Position numbers and translations under genes: made by a program. The notes beneath the pieces were generated by a model that saw only the letters and a list, made by a program, of their open reading frames with translations, had not been told where the DNA came from and did not search any database. From positions 1-30,567 of IMG/VR virus record IMGVR_UViG_3300006793_007337: 30,567 bases of DNA; one strand, 5' to 3'. Below are positions 1,450 through 29,786 of this stretch, one piece after another (positions within the stretch are counted from its first letter, which is position 1; every line of letters begins with the position of its first letter). This DNA is from a virus.

Positions 1450-1649
1450 AGAAAAGGTGAGGCGCAGGGAGCGAGAACTTTGCCCTGTTGGGATTCTCGG
1501 TATGCGCCTCGGGGCGAGCACAGGGAGCGAGAACTTGGCCCTACACGGGATTCTCGGTATGTGCTCTAAGCGTTCCCTCGCCGCCTATCCATCCCATCTC
1601 CCCACAGGTGTGGTTCTTGGGCGTGGCGGGTTCGGCTTGGGTCTGCTCT
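1450..1649 (-). ncRNA. Candidate small RNA B: two tandem covarying hairpins
   Basis: A minus-strand TATA box (1670-1679) predicts a transcript start near 1649, where no start codon lies. The predicted RNA of about 200 nt ends with two similar hairpins and a T-rich run (minus strand TTTTCTT, 1455-1449). Each hairpin has an identical middle stem CGAGAA/TTCTCG (1472-1477 with 1494-1499; 1528-1533 with 1551-1556), an apical CCC/GGG stem, and a conserved asymmetric internal loop. The outer stems differ in sequence but remain paired: GAGGCGCA with TGCGCCTC (1459-1466/1503-1510) and GAGCACA with TGTGCTC (1516-1522/1560-1566). This looks like compensatory change between two copies of a structured RNA. 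Function unknown. Confidence 0.55.
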
Positions 1650-1669
1650 GATTAGTCCTATGAGCCACT

Positions 1670-1679
1670 CCTATATGAA
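1670..1679 (-). promoter_or_regulatory. Minus-strand TATA promoter for RNA B
   Basis: On the minus strand this reads TTCATATAGG, identical to the plus-strand TATA elements at 4241 and 27006 that serve protein genes. It is preceded on the minus strand by GCGACACC, also seen before the promoter at 9820. The predicted start lies near 1649. Confidence 0.55.
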
Positions 1680-1727
1680 GGTGTCGCTCAAAAGGGTTGG
1701 ACCCCCGCCGACGCTTCACCATTCAGC

Positions 1728-1950
1728 AAAAACGCACCCCCTCAACACCTTGCGATGTGAGGTTGGGTGGGCGTGCGGCGGGGTGGCCCCCAAGGGTTCC
1801 GTGTGCATGAGGGCGGTGGAATTGCTCCGCCTTGCATCCGCTCGTAGGTATTTCACCTTCCGCTAAACACATCGGTCCCTTGAGGGCCTGTCCTTGAATC
1901 CCCCCGACTCGCATCGGGAGGTGCTTCGGTCGGGGTTGTTGCCCCAACAA
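1728..1950 (-). ncRNA. Candidate small RNA A, about 220 nt, with terminator hairpin
   Basis: The minus-strand TATA at 1969-1978 predicts a transcript start at about 1949-1950. The transcript would contain a hairpin GTTGGGG/CCCCGAC (1929-1948), an 8-bp hairpin CCTCCCGA/TCGGGGGG (1900-1921) and a 5-bp hairpin GGCGG/CCGCC (1812-1831). It ends in a 9-bp bulged stem (1735-1743 with 1759-1769) followed directly by TTTTT (1732-1728 on the minus strand), which is terminator-like. A TTG codon lies exactly at the predicted start and opens a 75-codon frame to 1723. That frame is Gly/Pro/His-rich and lacks the acidic character of the viral proteins, so I favour a non-coding RNA. A leaderless TTG-started peptide remains possible. 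Confidence 0.45.
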
Positions 1951-2129: not shown

Positions 2130-2243
2130 TGAAACAGACTTACACACTAACACACACACACAACAAACAAACTGTGTGTATGAAAGAGGAGAGGGGTCGG
2201 TCTGCATCATTGTTAAGAGGGTGGGGGTAGGCTTGAGGTGAGC

Positions 2244-4238
2244 ATGGCCCCCGAAATTATCGTCAGTCAATCCACCGAGTCGTCGTCCGACTTCCTCTTT
2301 GAAGCCGCCGACCTACCCGTGAAATTGACCTTCCTGTCGTCCACAAAGGGACGCATGGAGTTCAGCGCTGAGGTGGATGGCGAACCCAAGGGCAAGGTCA
2401 ATGTCCTGTCCCAGCACTCCATCGCTCGGCTCGCCAAGTCGTCGCTCAAGGACGAGGGACTCAAGGACGAGTTCACCGCCACGATGCTCAAGGCTGGCGT
2501 GATTCTCCGAGAAGGCACCTATGTCGTCGCCACCATGGAGGACAAAACAACCGCCGAAGTCATGTCGCTTGAGGGCGAGTCATCCACCTACGGGGACATT
2601 GAGCCAGCGACCATCGGACGATTCCTCGGCGAGCGCTTCCTGTTGGACCGTATCAACGAGATTCTCCACGAGAGTCGTGAGACCCCGTTCGTCGGAGACG
2701 ATGCTAACCTGCTCCTCACCTTCCTCGTGTTCTTGTCCTGCAAGACGGACAACCCGCTCAACCTTGAGATGATTGGGCAGTCATCCAGCGGCAAGACCTA
2801 CATGACCTTGACCGCTCGCAACGGCTTCCCCAAGTCCATGATTATGGTTCTCGCTGGGGCCTCCAAGGAGGCGCTGAAATACGACTACGACGAGGTGGAT
2901 GAGGACGGAAACTTCATCGTCAATGTGGACGGTCGTTGCATCGTCGTCTTGGAAAAGGACGAGTCATTCGCATTCATTCGCAAGATGAAGCCCATCATGT
3001 CGGGAGACGACACGGAACTCGTTTGGAAAACTCCCATCAAGAATGAGTTATCGGGGGAAATAGAGACGAGGGACTTCATCATCAGAGGTCGTCCGTCGTT
3101 CATCACGCTCACCACTCGCAACCCCAGCGAGCAGGAGCAAATCACACGGCAACTCATCATGACACCCGACACGACGGTGGAGAAGGTGAATGAAGTGGTC
3201 AAGAACGCCTTGCTGGCCAAGGCACGACCCGAGACCTTCAAGGTGCACCCCGACCTCAAAATGCTTCAAGCGTCCATGCTTTCACTCAACCGCTATCGGG
3301 TCCGCAACATTTTCGCCCCGCTCATGGTGGACTTCTTCCCCGCTCGCAACGCTCAGCACCAGCGAGACATCGGCAAGGTGCTCTCCATCATTGACGCCGT
3401 GGCTCTGCTCCACCAGCACCAGCGACCTGTGCAGAAGGACGAGCACGGGGACGAATACCTGCTGGCCTCCGTGGAGGATAATGTGATAGGGCTTATGCTC
3501 TGCGACCTCGTTCTCCGAGCCAGCCTGTCGGGGGTGCCCGACGACACTTGGACCGTATATCAGCAAATGACCGCCATGGAGGAAGCCAAGCGCCCGCTCA
3601 CCGAGGACAACATTCTCCAATGGCTCGGCATCCACGCCTTCACCATCAGCAAGAACGCCCTCAAGGAGAAGCACCTCCCGACGCTTGAGGACGCTGGCCT
3701 CATTGAGGTCGCTCGTCGTGGCGGAGGGCGCGGTGGCGGCAAGAAGGCATACCGCCTCGTCAAATCTCGCATCGGTCTCATGGACGACTACGCCCTGTCC
3801 CCCCTGTTCGTGGAAGCGGCGGCGGCGAACCTACACGACCTCGCCAACGAATACAACGATGTTTTGACCAGCGCCGAACCTGCCGCTCACCGATTCCCAT
3901 TGAAGGCGAAGGACCAATCCCTTCTCCGCTCCATCGGATGCCCCAGCAAGGAAGCGTCCGAGGTTTGGCGGTCTTTGTTCCTCCCATCCTACCTACGCCC
4001 TGCTGGACGCTCAACGCTCCTGTGGGACATCGTAGGAAAGGACTCCAAACACCGAGACGGATTGTTCGGTGGGGACGCTTGGTTCAACGCTACGAGCGAC
4101 GCAACAGCGGCATTGAGCAAGCGCCGAGAAGTCAAGGAAGCCATCAAGACTGCCTCGCAGTCCACCACTTTGGATAACGAGGACCTATGGGAAGCGATGA
4201 TGGATGCACACCTGTCGGGACTTGAGGATGATGATTGA
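2244..4238 (+). CDS. AAA+ P-loop helicase-like ATPase with C-terminal winged helix
   Basis: A 664-aa protein, probably the replicative helicase or helicase loader. Residues about 177-184 form a Walker A motif (GQSSSGKTY) after a helical segment. A hydrophobic strand ending 'CIVVLEKDE' near 231-240 fits Walker B, and 'ITLTTRNP' near 290 is a sensor-like strand. Residues about 455-515 look like a winged helix with a basic Gly/Arg wing (RRGGGRGGG), comparable in placement to the winged helix of MCM proteins, but the usual MCM motifs are not recognisable, so the exact family is unsettled. ATG 2244 is chosen because GAGGTGA lies 2-8 nt upstream. GTG at 2238 is in frame and sits at leaderless distance from a weak TTAAGAGG element (2209-2218), so it is a real alternative. 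The gene heads the replication region and is followed by the RPA-like gene. Confidence 0.6.
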   Translation: MAPEIIVSQSTESSSDFLFEAADLPVKLTFLSSTKGRMEFSAEVDGEPKGKVNVLSQHSIARLAKSSLKDEGLKDEFTATMLKAGVILREGTYVVATMEDKTTAEVMSLEGESSTYGDIEPATIGRFLGERFLLDRINEILHESRETPFVGDDANLLLTFLVFLSCKTDNPLNLEMIGQSSSGKTYMTLTARNGFPKSMIMVLAGASKEALKYDYDEVDEDGNFIVNVDGRCIVVLEKDESFAFIRKMKPIMSGDDTELVWKTPIKNELSGEIETRDFIIRGRPSFITLTTRNPSEQEQITRQLIMTPDTTVEKVNEVVKNALLAKARPETFKVHPDLKMLQASMLSLNRYRVRNIFAPLMVDFFPARNAQHQRDIGKVLSIIDAVALLHQHQRPVQKDEHGDEYLLASVEDNVIGLMLCDLVLRASLSGVPDDTWTVYQQMTAMEEAKRPLTEDNILQWLGIHAFTISKNALKEKHLPTLEDAGLIEVARRGGGRGGGKKAYRLVKSRIGLMDDYALSPLFVEAAAANLHDLANEYNDVLTSAEPAAHRFPLKAKDQSLLRSIGCPSKEASEVWRSLFLPSYLRPAGRSTLLWDIVGKDSKHRDGLFGGDAWFNATSDATAALSKRREVKEAIKTASQSTTLDNEDLWEAMMDAHLSGLEDDD

Positions 4239-24910: not shown

Positions 24911-26731
24911 TTGCCCGAGACTCCCGAGGAACTCCGCTCCCTTTTGCGAGGGGCTGGCCTACCCGTCTTTGAGACTGAATCCTACAAGGAACTCCGCTAT
25001 CGTGCCCAGCGTGCTGGCTTAGTGTCCTCCACGACCTCCACAGGGACCGCCACGGGCCTCCAAGGCCCTCGGGGTCCCCAAGGCCCAGCAGGACAAAGGG
25101 GGGCCACAGGAGCGACAGGAGCGGCAGGAACCGCTGGTGCTACGGGCGCCACGGGCGCGACAGGTGCCGCAGGCCCAGCAGGAGCGGACGGCTCTGATGG
25201 AGCGGACGGTGCGACAGGACCCACAGGACCCGCAGGAGCCACAGGAGCCGCTGGTGCTGACGGAGCAGATGGCTCCGATGGTGCTACGGGACCCACAGGA
25301 CCCACGGGACCCGCAGGGGCAGATGGCTCTGACGGTGCTGATGGAGCGCAAGGTCCAGTCGGTCCGATAGGACCTCAAGGTCCCGCTGGCTCAGATGGCT
25401 CAGATGGCTCCGATGGTGCAGATGGTGCCGCAGGCCCAGCAGGACCCCAAGGCCCAGCAGGAAATGACGGTGCTGATGGTGCAGATGGCTCTGACGGAGC
25501 CACAGGTCCCGCTGGTCCCATTGGACCCCAAGGCCCTGCTGGTGCGGACGGTGCGGACGGTGCTGATGGTTCTGATGGTGCGGCTGGCCCTGCTGGACCC
25601 GCTGGACCCGCTGGCCCTGCTGGTGCTGATGGCTCAGACGGAGCAGACGGGGCGGCTGGACCTGCTGGCCCTGCTGGACCCATAGGTCCACAAGGACCCG
25701 CTGGTGCAGATGGGAACACGATTGACCTTCCATCGCTCCCAGCAGACACACAACTTGCCGACGCCGACTTAATTCTCATTGACGCAGGGGCTAATGGGAC
25801 CAATAAGAAAACCACATTCACCGAGGTCAAGGAGTGGATTCGGGGCGAAGGTGTTCGGGTTGGTAGGGATGGCGGAGTCAATCAGTTGAGAATCCGAGAC
25901 TCAAGGGACGACGGGGAACTGACGCCCGATGACTTCCTCAATCAGATGGTCCACTTTGACTTCACCGACGACATGGCTGGTTCACCAAACAGTTGGGATG
26001 CAGTCTTGACAATGAAGGGTTGGACTGATTCATACCGTGTGTTTCAAATCTATTCTTCGGCTTCAAGTGAGGGGACGGACCAAACAAGAAAGGACACCGA
26101 GCCGCTGTATTTCCGTAGCGGAGAGGATGCAGGTTGGGGTGCTACACGGGAGATTATGACCTTCGCTGGGACAACCCCGAACGCTGACGGTGCGGCTAAT
26201 CAAATCCTACAAACCGACGGTGCTGGGACGCTCTCGTGGGCGGACCTACCTACTAACCCTGCACTCTCACAATACGAACGATATGAACTTGATTCGTCCA
26301 TTCCAGCGGCCAACGGAACAACCGTGCTTTTGACATTTGGTGTGGGTTCGGGTCCTCACCTCAAATCCACCTACAACCCAGCAATAACTGCGTGGGCTGT
26401 CAATCCAGCAAACACTCACATTGACATACTGGCGAATGGGTTGTATCAATTCACCTTTCAAGCCTTCATGGCCTCATTGGGAACTTCTCAAGCCGATTAT
26501 CGGATAGCAATTTCAACGAGTCCGTCGCTCACGGGAGACTTGCTTATGGTCCGCAATAGGACATCCTATGTGGACCGCCACACATCAGTCGGCACGGCCA
26601 CGGTGTATTTGACGGCGGGGGCCACGGTTTATTTCAGCGTTTTCAAGGGTGGAGGCAACGCCTACGAACTCGGTGGGACATTGGCTGGCCCCGAACTCCG
26701 AACATTCATTGACATGAGGAGGGTTCAATGA
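24911..26731 (+). CDS. Collagen-like tail fibre with a C1q-like C-terminal head
   Basis: A 606-aa protein from a TTG codon that directly follows the upstream stop; GGGAGGT at 24897-24903, 7 nt before, supports it. Residues about 1-47 form a short helical N-terminus, likely the tail-binding part. Residues about 48-265 are uninterrupted Gly-X-Y triplets (over 70), mainly GPA, GAD, GSD and GAT, which would fold as a collagen triple helix. A linker with 'DLPSLPADTQLADADLILID' is typical of phage fibre junctions. The last ~150 residues ('GLYQFTFQAF', 'GATVYFSVFKGGG') look like a trimeric C1q/TNF-like jelly roll suited to receptor binding. The DNA of the triplet region is internally repetitive and may vary in repeat number. 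Confidence 0.85.
   Translation: MPETPEELRSLLRGAGLPVFETESYKELRYRAQRAGLVSSTTSTGTATGLQGPRGPQGPAGQRGATGATGAAGTAGATGATGATGAAGPAGADGSDGADGATGPTGPAGATGAAGADGADGSDGATGPTGPTGPAGADGSDGADGAQGPVGPIGPQGPAGSDGSDGSDGADGAAGPAGPQGPAGNDGADGADGSDGATGPAGPIGPQGPAGADGADGADGSDGAAGPAGPAGPAGPAGADGSDGADGAAGPAGPAGPIGPQGPAGADGNTIDLPSLPADTQLADADLILIDAGANGTNKKTTFTEVKEWIRGEGVRVGRDGGVNQLRIRDSRDDGELTPDDFLNQMVHFDFTDDMAGSPNSWDAVLTMKGWTDSYRVFQIYSSASSEGTDQTRKDTEPLYFRSGEDAGWGATREIMTFAGTTPNADGAANQILQTDGAGTLSWADLPTNPALSQYERYELDSSIPAANGTTVLLTFGVGSGPHLKSTYNPAITAWAVNPANTHIDILANGLYQFTFQAFMASLGTSQADYRIAISTSPSLTGDLLMVRNRTSYVDRHTSVGTATVYLTAGATVYFSVFKGGGNAYELGGTLAGPELRTFIDMRRVQ
25062..25707 (+). repeat. Gly-X-Y coding repeat tract
   Basis: Degenerate 9- and 18-bp units such as GGTGCTGAT, GGCTCTGAC and GGACCCGCT code the collagen-like triplets. 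Synonymous variation between units is considerable, so the tract is not a recent simple expansion. Recombination between units could change fibre length. Confidence 0.85.
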
Positions 26732-28033: not shown

Positions 28034-28660
28034 ATGGATGTGGATGACGACGATTGGAACGACGGCCCCGAGGCGGAAGTTCTTGACATTGACACATGGG
28101 GCAAGGGAGGCCAGACGGAAGGGCTGGACGACGCTCTGATACGCTGGGTGGCGCTTCTGATGGTGCAGGGCTACAAAGAACACGAGGTCATGCGTCGTCT
28201 CGGAGAAGCCGATTTGGATAGGCGACTCACCCGAGGTGAACAAACCCGCCTTATGCGACTTGCGAGGATGGAATCAGAGGACCTTCGCCACCTCTCCATA
28301 GCCAAAGCCGAAATGGGCGACACCGATTGGCTAAGGTTGGACTCATACGCACGACGAAAGCGAATGCTGACGCTCACGGAGGGACTCGTTCACCAAGCAC
28401 ACGCCATGGCTGACAATGTGAGCAAACTGAACAATGTCTCCTTCATGGCGGCGAACCTCGTCAAGCAACAGGACCAATTGGATAAGATGAGTGGCGCTCA
28501 AGACGCCAAGCCACAGGTCGTGGTGAACATTGGCTACGACCCAATAGAGCAGTTCCGTTCCGTGGTGCAGGAAGAACTGCGAACCATAGACGATGCGGTG
28601 AGGATTATTCCAGCCGATAGGGACGATTCAGAGGCCGACGAAACCGACGACGAGAATTGA
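28034..28660 (+). CDS. Possible small terminase subunit or DNA-binding protein
   Basis: A 208-aa protein with acidic ends (MDVDDDDWNDG and DDSEADETDDEN). Residues about 35-60 ('DDALIRWVALLMVQGYKEHEVMRRLG') suit a helix-turn-helix, the next ~90 residues are long helices with Gln/Asn/Lys ('VSKLNNVSFMAANLVKQQDQLDKM'), and 'QVVVNIGYDPIEQF' is a strand before the tail. HTH plus helical oligomerisation region is the layout of small terminase subunits, and the gene sits right beside a repeat-rich non-coding region that could be the packaging site. The large subunit is not visible in the window, so a replication initiator or regulator is equally possible. Confidence 0.45.
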   Translation: MDVDDDDWNDGPEAEVLDIDTWGKGGQTEGLDDALIRWVALLMVQGYKEHEVMRRLGEADLDRRLTRGEQTRLMRLARMESEDLRHLSIAKAEMGDTDWLRLDSYARRKRMLTLTEGLVHQAHAMADNVSKLNNVSFMAANLVKQQDQLDKMSGAQDAKPQVVVNIGYDPIEQFRSVVQEELRTIDDAVRIIPADRDDSEADETDDEN

Positions 28661-28675
28661 TTCATAACCGATGGG

Positions 28676-28799
28676 GATTGAACCGATACCTGCGGAACTT
28701 GCCGTTGATTTAGCCGATACTTGCGACACTCGGCATGGATTTAGCCGATACTTGCGAGGTCGGAGGTTGATTTAGCCGATACCTTCGGCAGGACGCGTT
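28676..28799. repeat. Four tandem 31-bp repeats (iteron-like)
   Basis: Units start at 28676, 28707, 28738 and 28769, exactly 31 bp apart. The second and third share GATTTAGCCGATACTTGCG; the first (GATTGAACCGATACCTGCG) and fourth (GATTTAGCCGATACCTTCG) are variants. The other ~12 bp vary. An exact 31-bp period is three helical turns, so proteins bound to each unit would align on one face. Candidate origin, terminase site or operator array. Confidence 0.85.
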
Positions 28800-28979
28800 G
28801 TTTTGGTCTCGTGTTGGCTTCGCCCGCTCGGTCGGGCTGACGCTCAAGGGGTTATAAACCTTTAGGTGTAGCGTTCTCTTTAGGTCAAAGGAGAATGTAG
28901 GGGAGGAAAGATTATATACCCCCTGCGGCGGGGGTCGGCGTGGCGGGTGCTTTGGCCGCTTGCGCTTCATCTGCCCCAT
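28710..28979 (-). CDS. Doubtful minus-strand small protein across the iterons
   Basis: The minus-strand CTTTATAGGG element (29001-29010) lies 26 nt before an ATG at 28979, the leaderless spacing used elsewhere. The 89-codon frame begins with a very basic stretch (KRKRPKHPPRRPPP) and then runs through the 31-bp repeats, where its sequence simply reflects the repeated DNA. Composition is unlike other proteins in the window. Either a small basic protein or a transcript without coding function; I would not rely on it as a gene. Confidence 0.2.
   Translation of the reverse strand: MGQMKRKRPKHPPRRPPPQGVYNLSSPTFSFDLKRTLHLKVYNPLSVSPTERAKPTRDQNNASCRRYRLNQPPTSQVSAKSMPSVASIG
28843..28900. repeat. TATAAA/GCGTTCTC module, copy 1
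   Basis: TATAAA at 28853-28858, then CCTTTAGGTGTA, then GCGTTCTC at 28871-28878. The same two boxes recur with identical 12-bp spacing at 29004-29029 and, inverted, at 30028-30053. Similarity extends into AAAGGAGAATGTAGG (28887-28901), matched in the inverted copy. Confidence 0.7.
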
Positions 28980-29000
28980 GTTGGGACCTAAAGCATTTGA

Positions 29001-29030
29001 CCCTATAAAGGTTTGGGTGTGGCGTTCTCC
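29001..29030. repeat. TATAAA/GCGTTCTC module, copy 2, with minus-strand promoter
   Basis: TATAAA 29004-29009 and GCGTTCTC 29022-29029. Read on the minus strand, CTTTATAGGG resembles the viral TATA element and would direct leftward transcription towards the iterons. The region 28800-29264 otherwise shows no supported gene. Confidence 0.6.
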
Positions 29031-29232
29031 CGTCGGCGAAACGGCCCCGCCGCCCGTAGGTTGATGGGCTGGGGGTATATAGTCTTTCCGTTCTGATAGT
29101 CTCCCGAGGTCGGACCCTATCATGAACGGGCCGCCCCTCTGGCCTTCGGAGGGCCTCGGAGGACCCCCGAAAAAGCCGAAAATGCAGGCCGACCTATATC
29201 CCCCTATAAACCTATCGCAATTCTGCGCCGAA

Positions 29233-29242
29233 ACCTTTAAGG
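29233..29242 (+). promoter_or_regulatory. TATA-like element (ACCTTTAAGG) for the gene at 29265
   Basis: Centred 27 nt upstream of ATG 29265. It differs from the ATATAGG consensus and is related instead to the AACCTTTA motifs of the nearby repeat modules, so this gene may be controlled with them. Confidence 0.5.
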
Positions 29243-29264
29243 TGGGAGGCGGTATAGGACAACC

Positions 29265-29786
29265 ATGGCGCAACAAGCGAACCAAACCCCAGCCCGAACT
29301 GAGACCACCCTCGTTGTGGAGGAAACCACCTCCCTCGTTGGCCTTCAAGCCATCGCCAAGGCGATGGATAAGGTCCACACCACCAACAACAAGGCAACCG
29401 TCCAAGCCCTTGGCGAGGACTCCGCCACCCCCTTCATGCTCACGGGCGTTTTGACCGTCGGCGAAGAGACCGCACTCATTGACGAGAGCGGCATGATTGA
29501 AGTCGGTGCCTCCTTCCAGCGTGCTCAAACCTCAGCGTTCAAGACCACGAACGCCATTCGCGACGCTCTCGCCGTCATGGGCATGCACGCCCCCAAAATG
29601 GCCGAAGCCATCATGGCTTCCATGCTCGCTTCCAAAGACGGTGGAGACTCCGCCGCCGCACTTGAGGCCAACGGCTTCAACATTTCCGAAGCCGCCCTTG
29701 ACCGAGCCAACGCCTTCATGGCCTCCCTCGCCACCAAGAGCACCCGCACCGTTTCCGCCGCTGTCAAGGTCAGCCTTGACGACTGA
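29265..29786 (+). CDS. Hypothetical protein isolated in the repeat region
   Basis: A 173-aa protein rich in Ala and Thr. After a polar N-terminus comes a helix ('SLVGLQAIAKAMDKV'), a strand pair around 'FMLTGVLTVGEETALIDESG', then long Ala/Met-rich helices ('KMAEAIMASMLAS', 'ALDRANAFMASLA') and a final strand. No family recognised; no membrane segment or cysteine. It stands alone between about 600 nt and 460 nt of non-coding DNA with repeats on both sides, and its codon use is strongly biased to GCC/ACC/CTC, as in highly expressed genes. It could be an abundant protein acting on the flanking repeats, but this is inference. Confidence 0.75.
   Translation: MAQQANQTPARTETTLVVEETTSLVGLQAIAKAMDKVHTTNNKATVQALGEDSATPFMLTGVLTVGEETALIDESGMIEVGASFQRAQTSAFKTTNAIRDALAVMGMHAPKMAEAIMASMLASKDGGDSAAALEANGFNISEAALDRANAFMASLATKSTRTVSAAVKVSLDD

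Follow-up and report, generated by a model that had tools for sequence, protein, structure and literature searches.

A predicted viral non-coding RNA gene with tandem covarying hairpins in a hotspot of exchangeable RNA genes

Introduction

What is encoded between the tail gene and the ATPase gene of the virus in IMG/VR record IMGVR_UViG_3300006793_007337? We analysed the whole record, a stretch of 30,567 nt referred to here as the window. The tail gene encodes a YQBQ-like protein on the plus strand (1-1449), and an ATPase gene with a P-loop motif (ORF 2238-4238) adjoins the intergenic region. The original prediction had placed a minus-strand small-RNA gene at 1450-1680, built around two tandem hairpins whose fold it did not recognise.

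The window also encodes a tape-measure protein, a PD-(D/E)XK exonuclease and an archaeal Hef/XPF-like nuclease. Its protein genes have archaeal-type promoters, with a BRE-like element and a TATA box, and an ATG about 27 bases downstream, so that the viral mRNAs appear to be leaderless. These promoters and the leaderless layout make an archaeal host likely, perhaps one of the Poseidoniales (marine group II). The ATPase matches no Pfam or NCBIfam family and has no relatives in the phage collection; nor does it provide a link to a host, because relatives are absent from the prokaryote genomes searched. Elsewhere in the window are a 606-aa collagen-like protein of GXY repeats (24911-26731) and an iteron-like intergenic stretch (28660-29265) with about four direct repeats resembling GATTTAGCCGATACTTGCGA and the inverted pair GATTATATACCCCC / GGGGGTATATAGTC.

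Results

A uniform promoter, CGAnACCTTAATATAGGGGTGG, is found at 11 plus-strand sites between 4244 and 27009, with an ATG at +25 to +28. We trained a promoter matrix solely on 11 of the window's promoters that are followed by an ATG, excluding the site upstream of the hairpins. Blind to that site, the matrix nevertheless gave it a score of 29.8, the seventh highest in the window, in a range of 16-32.5 for the ATG-bearing promoters; the best site in 100 dinucleotide-shuffled windows reached 19.3, and the best site in the window apart from the ATG-bearing promoters and those of RNA1 and RNA2 (defined below) reached 12.8. The element (1661-1686, minus strand) consists of the BRE-like CGACACC and TTCATATAGGAGTGG, with ATATA at 1676-1672. 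The minus-strand TATA box of the original prediction is thus present, with its position corrected to 1672-1676. All 11 training promoters have an ATG at +25 to +28, whereas this one has none at the expected start, again as had been predicted. Applying the spacing of the viral mRNAs, whose ATG lies at +27, we set the start of the transcript at 1649.

From this promoter geometry, the fold, conservation in a related contig (L006) and the lack of a conserved ORF, we predict a non-coding RNA of about 200 nt, RNA1, at 1450-1649 on the minus strand. It would begin with a 5' structural domain (1568-1648) closed by a GAGC/GCUU stem, the same closing stems being predicted in the window and in L006, and continue with two tandem hairpins of about 50 nt at 1516-1566 and 1459-1510. 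In hairpin 1, the outer stem P1 (GAGCACA/UGUGCUC) leads through a 3x5 internal loop (UAC/CUCCC) to the middle stem P2 (CGAGAAU/GUUCUCG), a CCAA bulge and a CCC/GGG apex. Hairpin 2 has the same core, with P1 formed by GAGGCGCA/UGCGCCUC, a CAAA bulge and a different apex loop. A T-rich tract, TTTTCTT (1449-1455), directly borders the stop codon of the plus-strand tail gene and may mark the 3' end. The original prediction had noted this tract beyond the last hairpin; it is present here and is not kept in the related contig L014, so the position of the 3' end can only be inferred.

The fold of the tandem hairpins is specific to one strand. Over 1450-1580 the minus strand gives z=-4.15, with none of 200 shuffles as good, compared with z=-1.69 for the plus strand, and the predicted 200-nt RNA1 gives z=-3.51 and -0.92, respectively. 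The structured strand is thus the minus strand, on which an invariant U-G pair is formed that becomes a broken A-C on the plus strand. Between the two copies, six of the 14 P1 bases differ, amounting to three fully compensated pairs, whereas in the middle stem and internal loops a single position out of 32 has changed (Fisher p=0.002). The prediction of two adjacent copies, with different apical loops and with outer stems (GAGGCGCA/TGCGCCTC and GAGCACA/TGTGCTC) that differ in sequence and remain fully paired, therefore stands; the middle stem and internal loops, which had been called identical, are so except for the single difference, an A/C in the bulge.

Both hairpins are kept in two other contigs, L006 and L009, with one change in 108 aligned bases, and in a third, L014, a single copy with a compensatory change in its stem lies within an RNA that is otherwise unlike RNA1. 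Comparing the window with L006, we counted one substitution and one gap in the 108 aligned bases of the hairpins, five substitutions in 82 aligned bases of the 5' domain, together with a 12-nt insertion near its apex, and 35 in 245 for RNA2; at fourfold-degenerate sites of the adjacent tail gene, 58% differ. The hairpin alignment comprises four distinct sequences from three lineages (the window, L006/L009 and L014). Four P1 pairs are changed on both sides, 98.5% of the cells are paired, and loss of pairing in homologues, proposed earlier as grounds for rejecting the small-RNA gene, is not what L006, L009 and L014 display. The covariation score is 0.255; shuffles gave 0.125 (0/500), and slid controls did not exceed 0.098. 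The alignment is small, and shuffle counts of this sort overstate significance when sequences are related. Helices 2 and 3 say nothing about pairing because they are invariant in this alignment. The low divergence may reflect either strong constraint or a recent move of the module. The compensated P1 differences between copies would argue for constraint on the core; since only four hairpin sequences from three lineages are available, recent transfer may account for part of its invariance.

In the collections searched, the hairpins turned up in these few viruses only. A covariance-model search of 61 loci and 14 whole records returned one weak extra match (L075, 14.8 bits), which we judged to be chance, and pattern scans, some with free stem or loop letters, found the same few viruses only; the coding-sequence matches of the first scan were likewise put down to chance. 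The pattern had no matches in the prokaryote genome contigs, phage records or plasmid records screened.

Comparison with known RNA classes bears out the earlier statement that the fold is not a recognised one. Taking a covariance-model score at or above the gathering threshold as membership, no Rfam 15 family matches the window, and scans of 15 relatives were also negative; at E up to 5, the region 1300-2260 yields two chance miRNA matches, neither over the hairpins. ARAGORN finds no tRNA or tmRNA gene. Archaeal box C/D and H/ACA guide RNAs are, like RNA1, small RNAs with hairpins and internal loops. However, the C box RUGAUGA and the D box CUGA are both absent from the 200-nt RNA1, and in place of the ACA expected just 3' of each hairpin, along with a k-turn, hairpin 1 is followed by GCCCCG and hairpin 2 by ACCUUUUC, with no k-turn. 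Nor does any Rfam ribozyme model match RNA1, which sets aside the known self-cleaving ribozymes. CsrB and RsmZ are bacterial multi-hairpin RNAs that sequester protein through GGA loops; RNA1 likewise repeats one hairpin within a short RNA, but here the conserved, putatively protein-binding part is the internal-loop core. Its own promoter, the absence of an ORF and a conserved, covarying fold would place RNA1 among viral structured non-coding RNA genes. Phage-borne structured non-coding RNAs of this general sort, with no assigned role, include GOLLD and ROOL (PMC12286853; PMC2864571). These too are non-coding, structured, carried in viral or mobile DNA and found by comparative genomics, but they are large bacterial RNAs, in contrast to the roughly 200 nt, archaeal-type viruses, tandem near-identical hairpins and lack of an Rfam match that characterise RNA1. 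The literature that we searched describes no structured RNA gene of this kind for marine archaeal viruses, and neither intergenic regions nor promoters are mentioned in a 2023 paper on magroviruses.

The original prediction had overlooked the 5' domain of RNA1, a neighbouring RNA gene with its own promoter, and the hotspot to which both belong. This neighbour, RNA2 (1690-1948, minus strand), is a predicted structured RNA (z=-4.7 to -5.0) in which a hairpin starts at the very first bases, GUUGGGG, and whose end lies at TTTT (1690-1693). Its promoter (1960-1985, site 1975, minus strand) scores 20.3, whereas 100 shuffles produced no site that reached 20, and has no ATG at +27. The first 49-50 bases of RNA2 recur in L014, L015 and L006, and the sequence that follows them is replaced or broken up in some of these contigs. 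In RNA1, RNA2 and predicted RNAs of L014, L016, L023 and L026, the predicted +1 lies within the first two bases of a 5' stem, a coincidence that would lend independent support to the predicted start. Farther towards the ATPase gene, 2000-2210 holds a GGGGCTTT/AAAGCCCC pair and the palindrome CCCCCCTATGGGGGG, common to many relatives; a replication origin or a further RNA is possible there.

We surveyed 58 loci related to the ATPase ORF, counting as close relatives those 21 that share 72% identity or more and have usable sequence upstream. In 19 of the 21, the intergenic region 5' of the ATPase gene contains at least one promoter without an ATG; L020 and L030 have small-ORF cassettes only. The predicted RNAs are mostly different between relatives and lie on either strand. 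One of them, RNA3, is present in L006, L009, L015 and L021; another, with 92% identity over 72 bases, is on the minus strand in L016 and on the plus strand in L023/L024; and further distinct ones occur in L018/L019, L021, L022, L025-L027 and L028. For most of them the predicted fold is more stable than in shuffled sequence, with z down to -7.6; those of L025 and L028 are unremarkable. RNA3, L014, L016 and L026 have a second hairpin module, M, in common, in whose covarying stem eight pairs are changed on both sides, and in L014 an M element is joined to one RNA1-type hairpin in a single predicted RNA. RNA1 is absent from the near relatives L015, whose tail gene is 94% identical, and L072, and is thus accessory. 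These differing cassettes, shared modules and absences indicate that RNAs and modules are exchanged between genomes. On this reading, RNA1 is one of the accessory RNA genes that trade places in the hotspot.

Module M lies 5' of the ATPase gene in L006, L014, L015, L016, L021 and L026 and has a 12-nt loop, GACUGAAACAUA, closed by CC/GG. This loop is similar to a conserved 23S rRNA loop, but mimicry of ribosomal RNA was set aside as no more than a resemblance. Three bacterial-phage contigs (L076, L078 and L079) share a 20-mer of M, near the number estimated for chance, and were left aside. Small ORFs of 61-81 aa fill the same slot behind the same promoters in L020, L021, L023, L024, L026 and L030, some with CxxC pairs like those of a zinc ribbon.

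Discussion

The reading of 1450-1680 as a small-RNA gene is well supported by the comparisons above. The promoter found by a blind matrix, the missing ATG, the minus-specific fold, the compensatory pairs and one change in 108 bases against 58% at fourfold sites together indicate that 1450-1649 is very probably a non-coding RNA gene of the virus, served by a promoter of its own. That relatives keep the fold, and replace the gene by other RNA genes at the same place, points to RNA1 being a real viral RNA.

What such an RNA would do is a more tentative matter. Its product would be the 5' domain followed by two copies of the hairpin, each with an outer stem that varies by compensation around a fixed core. 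Because P1 and the apical loop vary around a core that is near-invariant across copies and viruses, and because L006 and L009 keep both copies, we suggest that the core is a binding site, specific in sequence and structure, that is carried twice. Transcribed at a high level, RNA1 would then offer a protein two such sites and serve as its decoy or assembly platform; the likeliest partner would be a host factor that has to be kept occupied while the virus infects the cell. A role as an accessory gene of host interaction is suggested by its absence from L015 and L072, the reuse of one hairpin in L014, and the other RNAs and small ORFs that neighbour it in the slot. We put forward a bivalent, protein-binding accessory RNA with some reserve, and rate the explanation as a whole, gene and decoy or platform together, at a little short of an even chance. 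The present evidence fits a decoy no better than another protein-binding or a catalytic role.

It is unlikely that RNA1 instead has a structural role, as a virion or packaging RNA, a replication-associated RNA near an origin, or the scaffold of a viral ribonucleoprotein. Its location between the tail gene and the conserved ATPase gene, near the conserved palindromic region at about 2000-2210, would suit such a role; however, RNA1 is missing from close relatives and so is not essential for packaging or replication. Regulation by antisense pairing, in which the conserved, unpaired CUCCC would contact read-through tail mRNA or another viral or host mRNA, is distinctly unlikely. Convergent as it is with the tail gene, RNA1 would be fully antisense to any transcript reading past the tail stop, but its gene ends at that stop codon without overlapping the tail ORF, the apical loops that usually make such contacts vary, and the RNA genes of L018 and L025-L029 in the same slot are oppositely oriented.

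The evident exchange of cassettes at the locus might be taken to mean that the hairpins act as single-stranded DNA, for example as the recombination site behind the exchange. We consider this very improbable, since most hotspot cassettes are without the RNA1 hairpin, the fold signal, with its invariant U-G pair, is specific to the RNA minus strand, and RNA1 has its own promoter. Even less probable is a tandem self-cleaving ribozyme in which the GGG apex pairs with the CUCCC loop as a pseudoknot: the tandem copies, fixed core, freely covarying closing stem and two CCC strands competing for one GGG are what such a ribozyme might look like, yet no Rfam ribozyme family matches even at E=5 and no known catalytic core is recognised. 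Functionless chance repeats, conceivable in a GC-rich region that holds several other inverted repeats, are scarcely credible in view of the covariation in homologues, the near-zero divergence and the promoter, and are contradicted by the comparison.

It is possible, though we hold it doubtful, that tailed viruses of marine archaea maintain the hotspot as a non-coding arsenal against the host, in which unrelated structured RNAs, built from exchangeable hairpin modules and equipped with their own promoters, would pass from genome to genome, as small anti-defence proteins do among phages. Its strong promoters, fixed core and rapid gain and loss make the RNA1-type family a source of concrete targets in marine metatranscriptomes, and RNAs of this type could serve as bait for host factors. 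Our findings suggest that these viruses trade accessory RNAs, besides accessory proteins.
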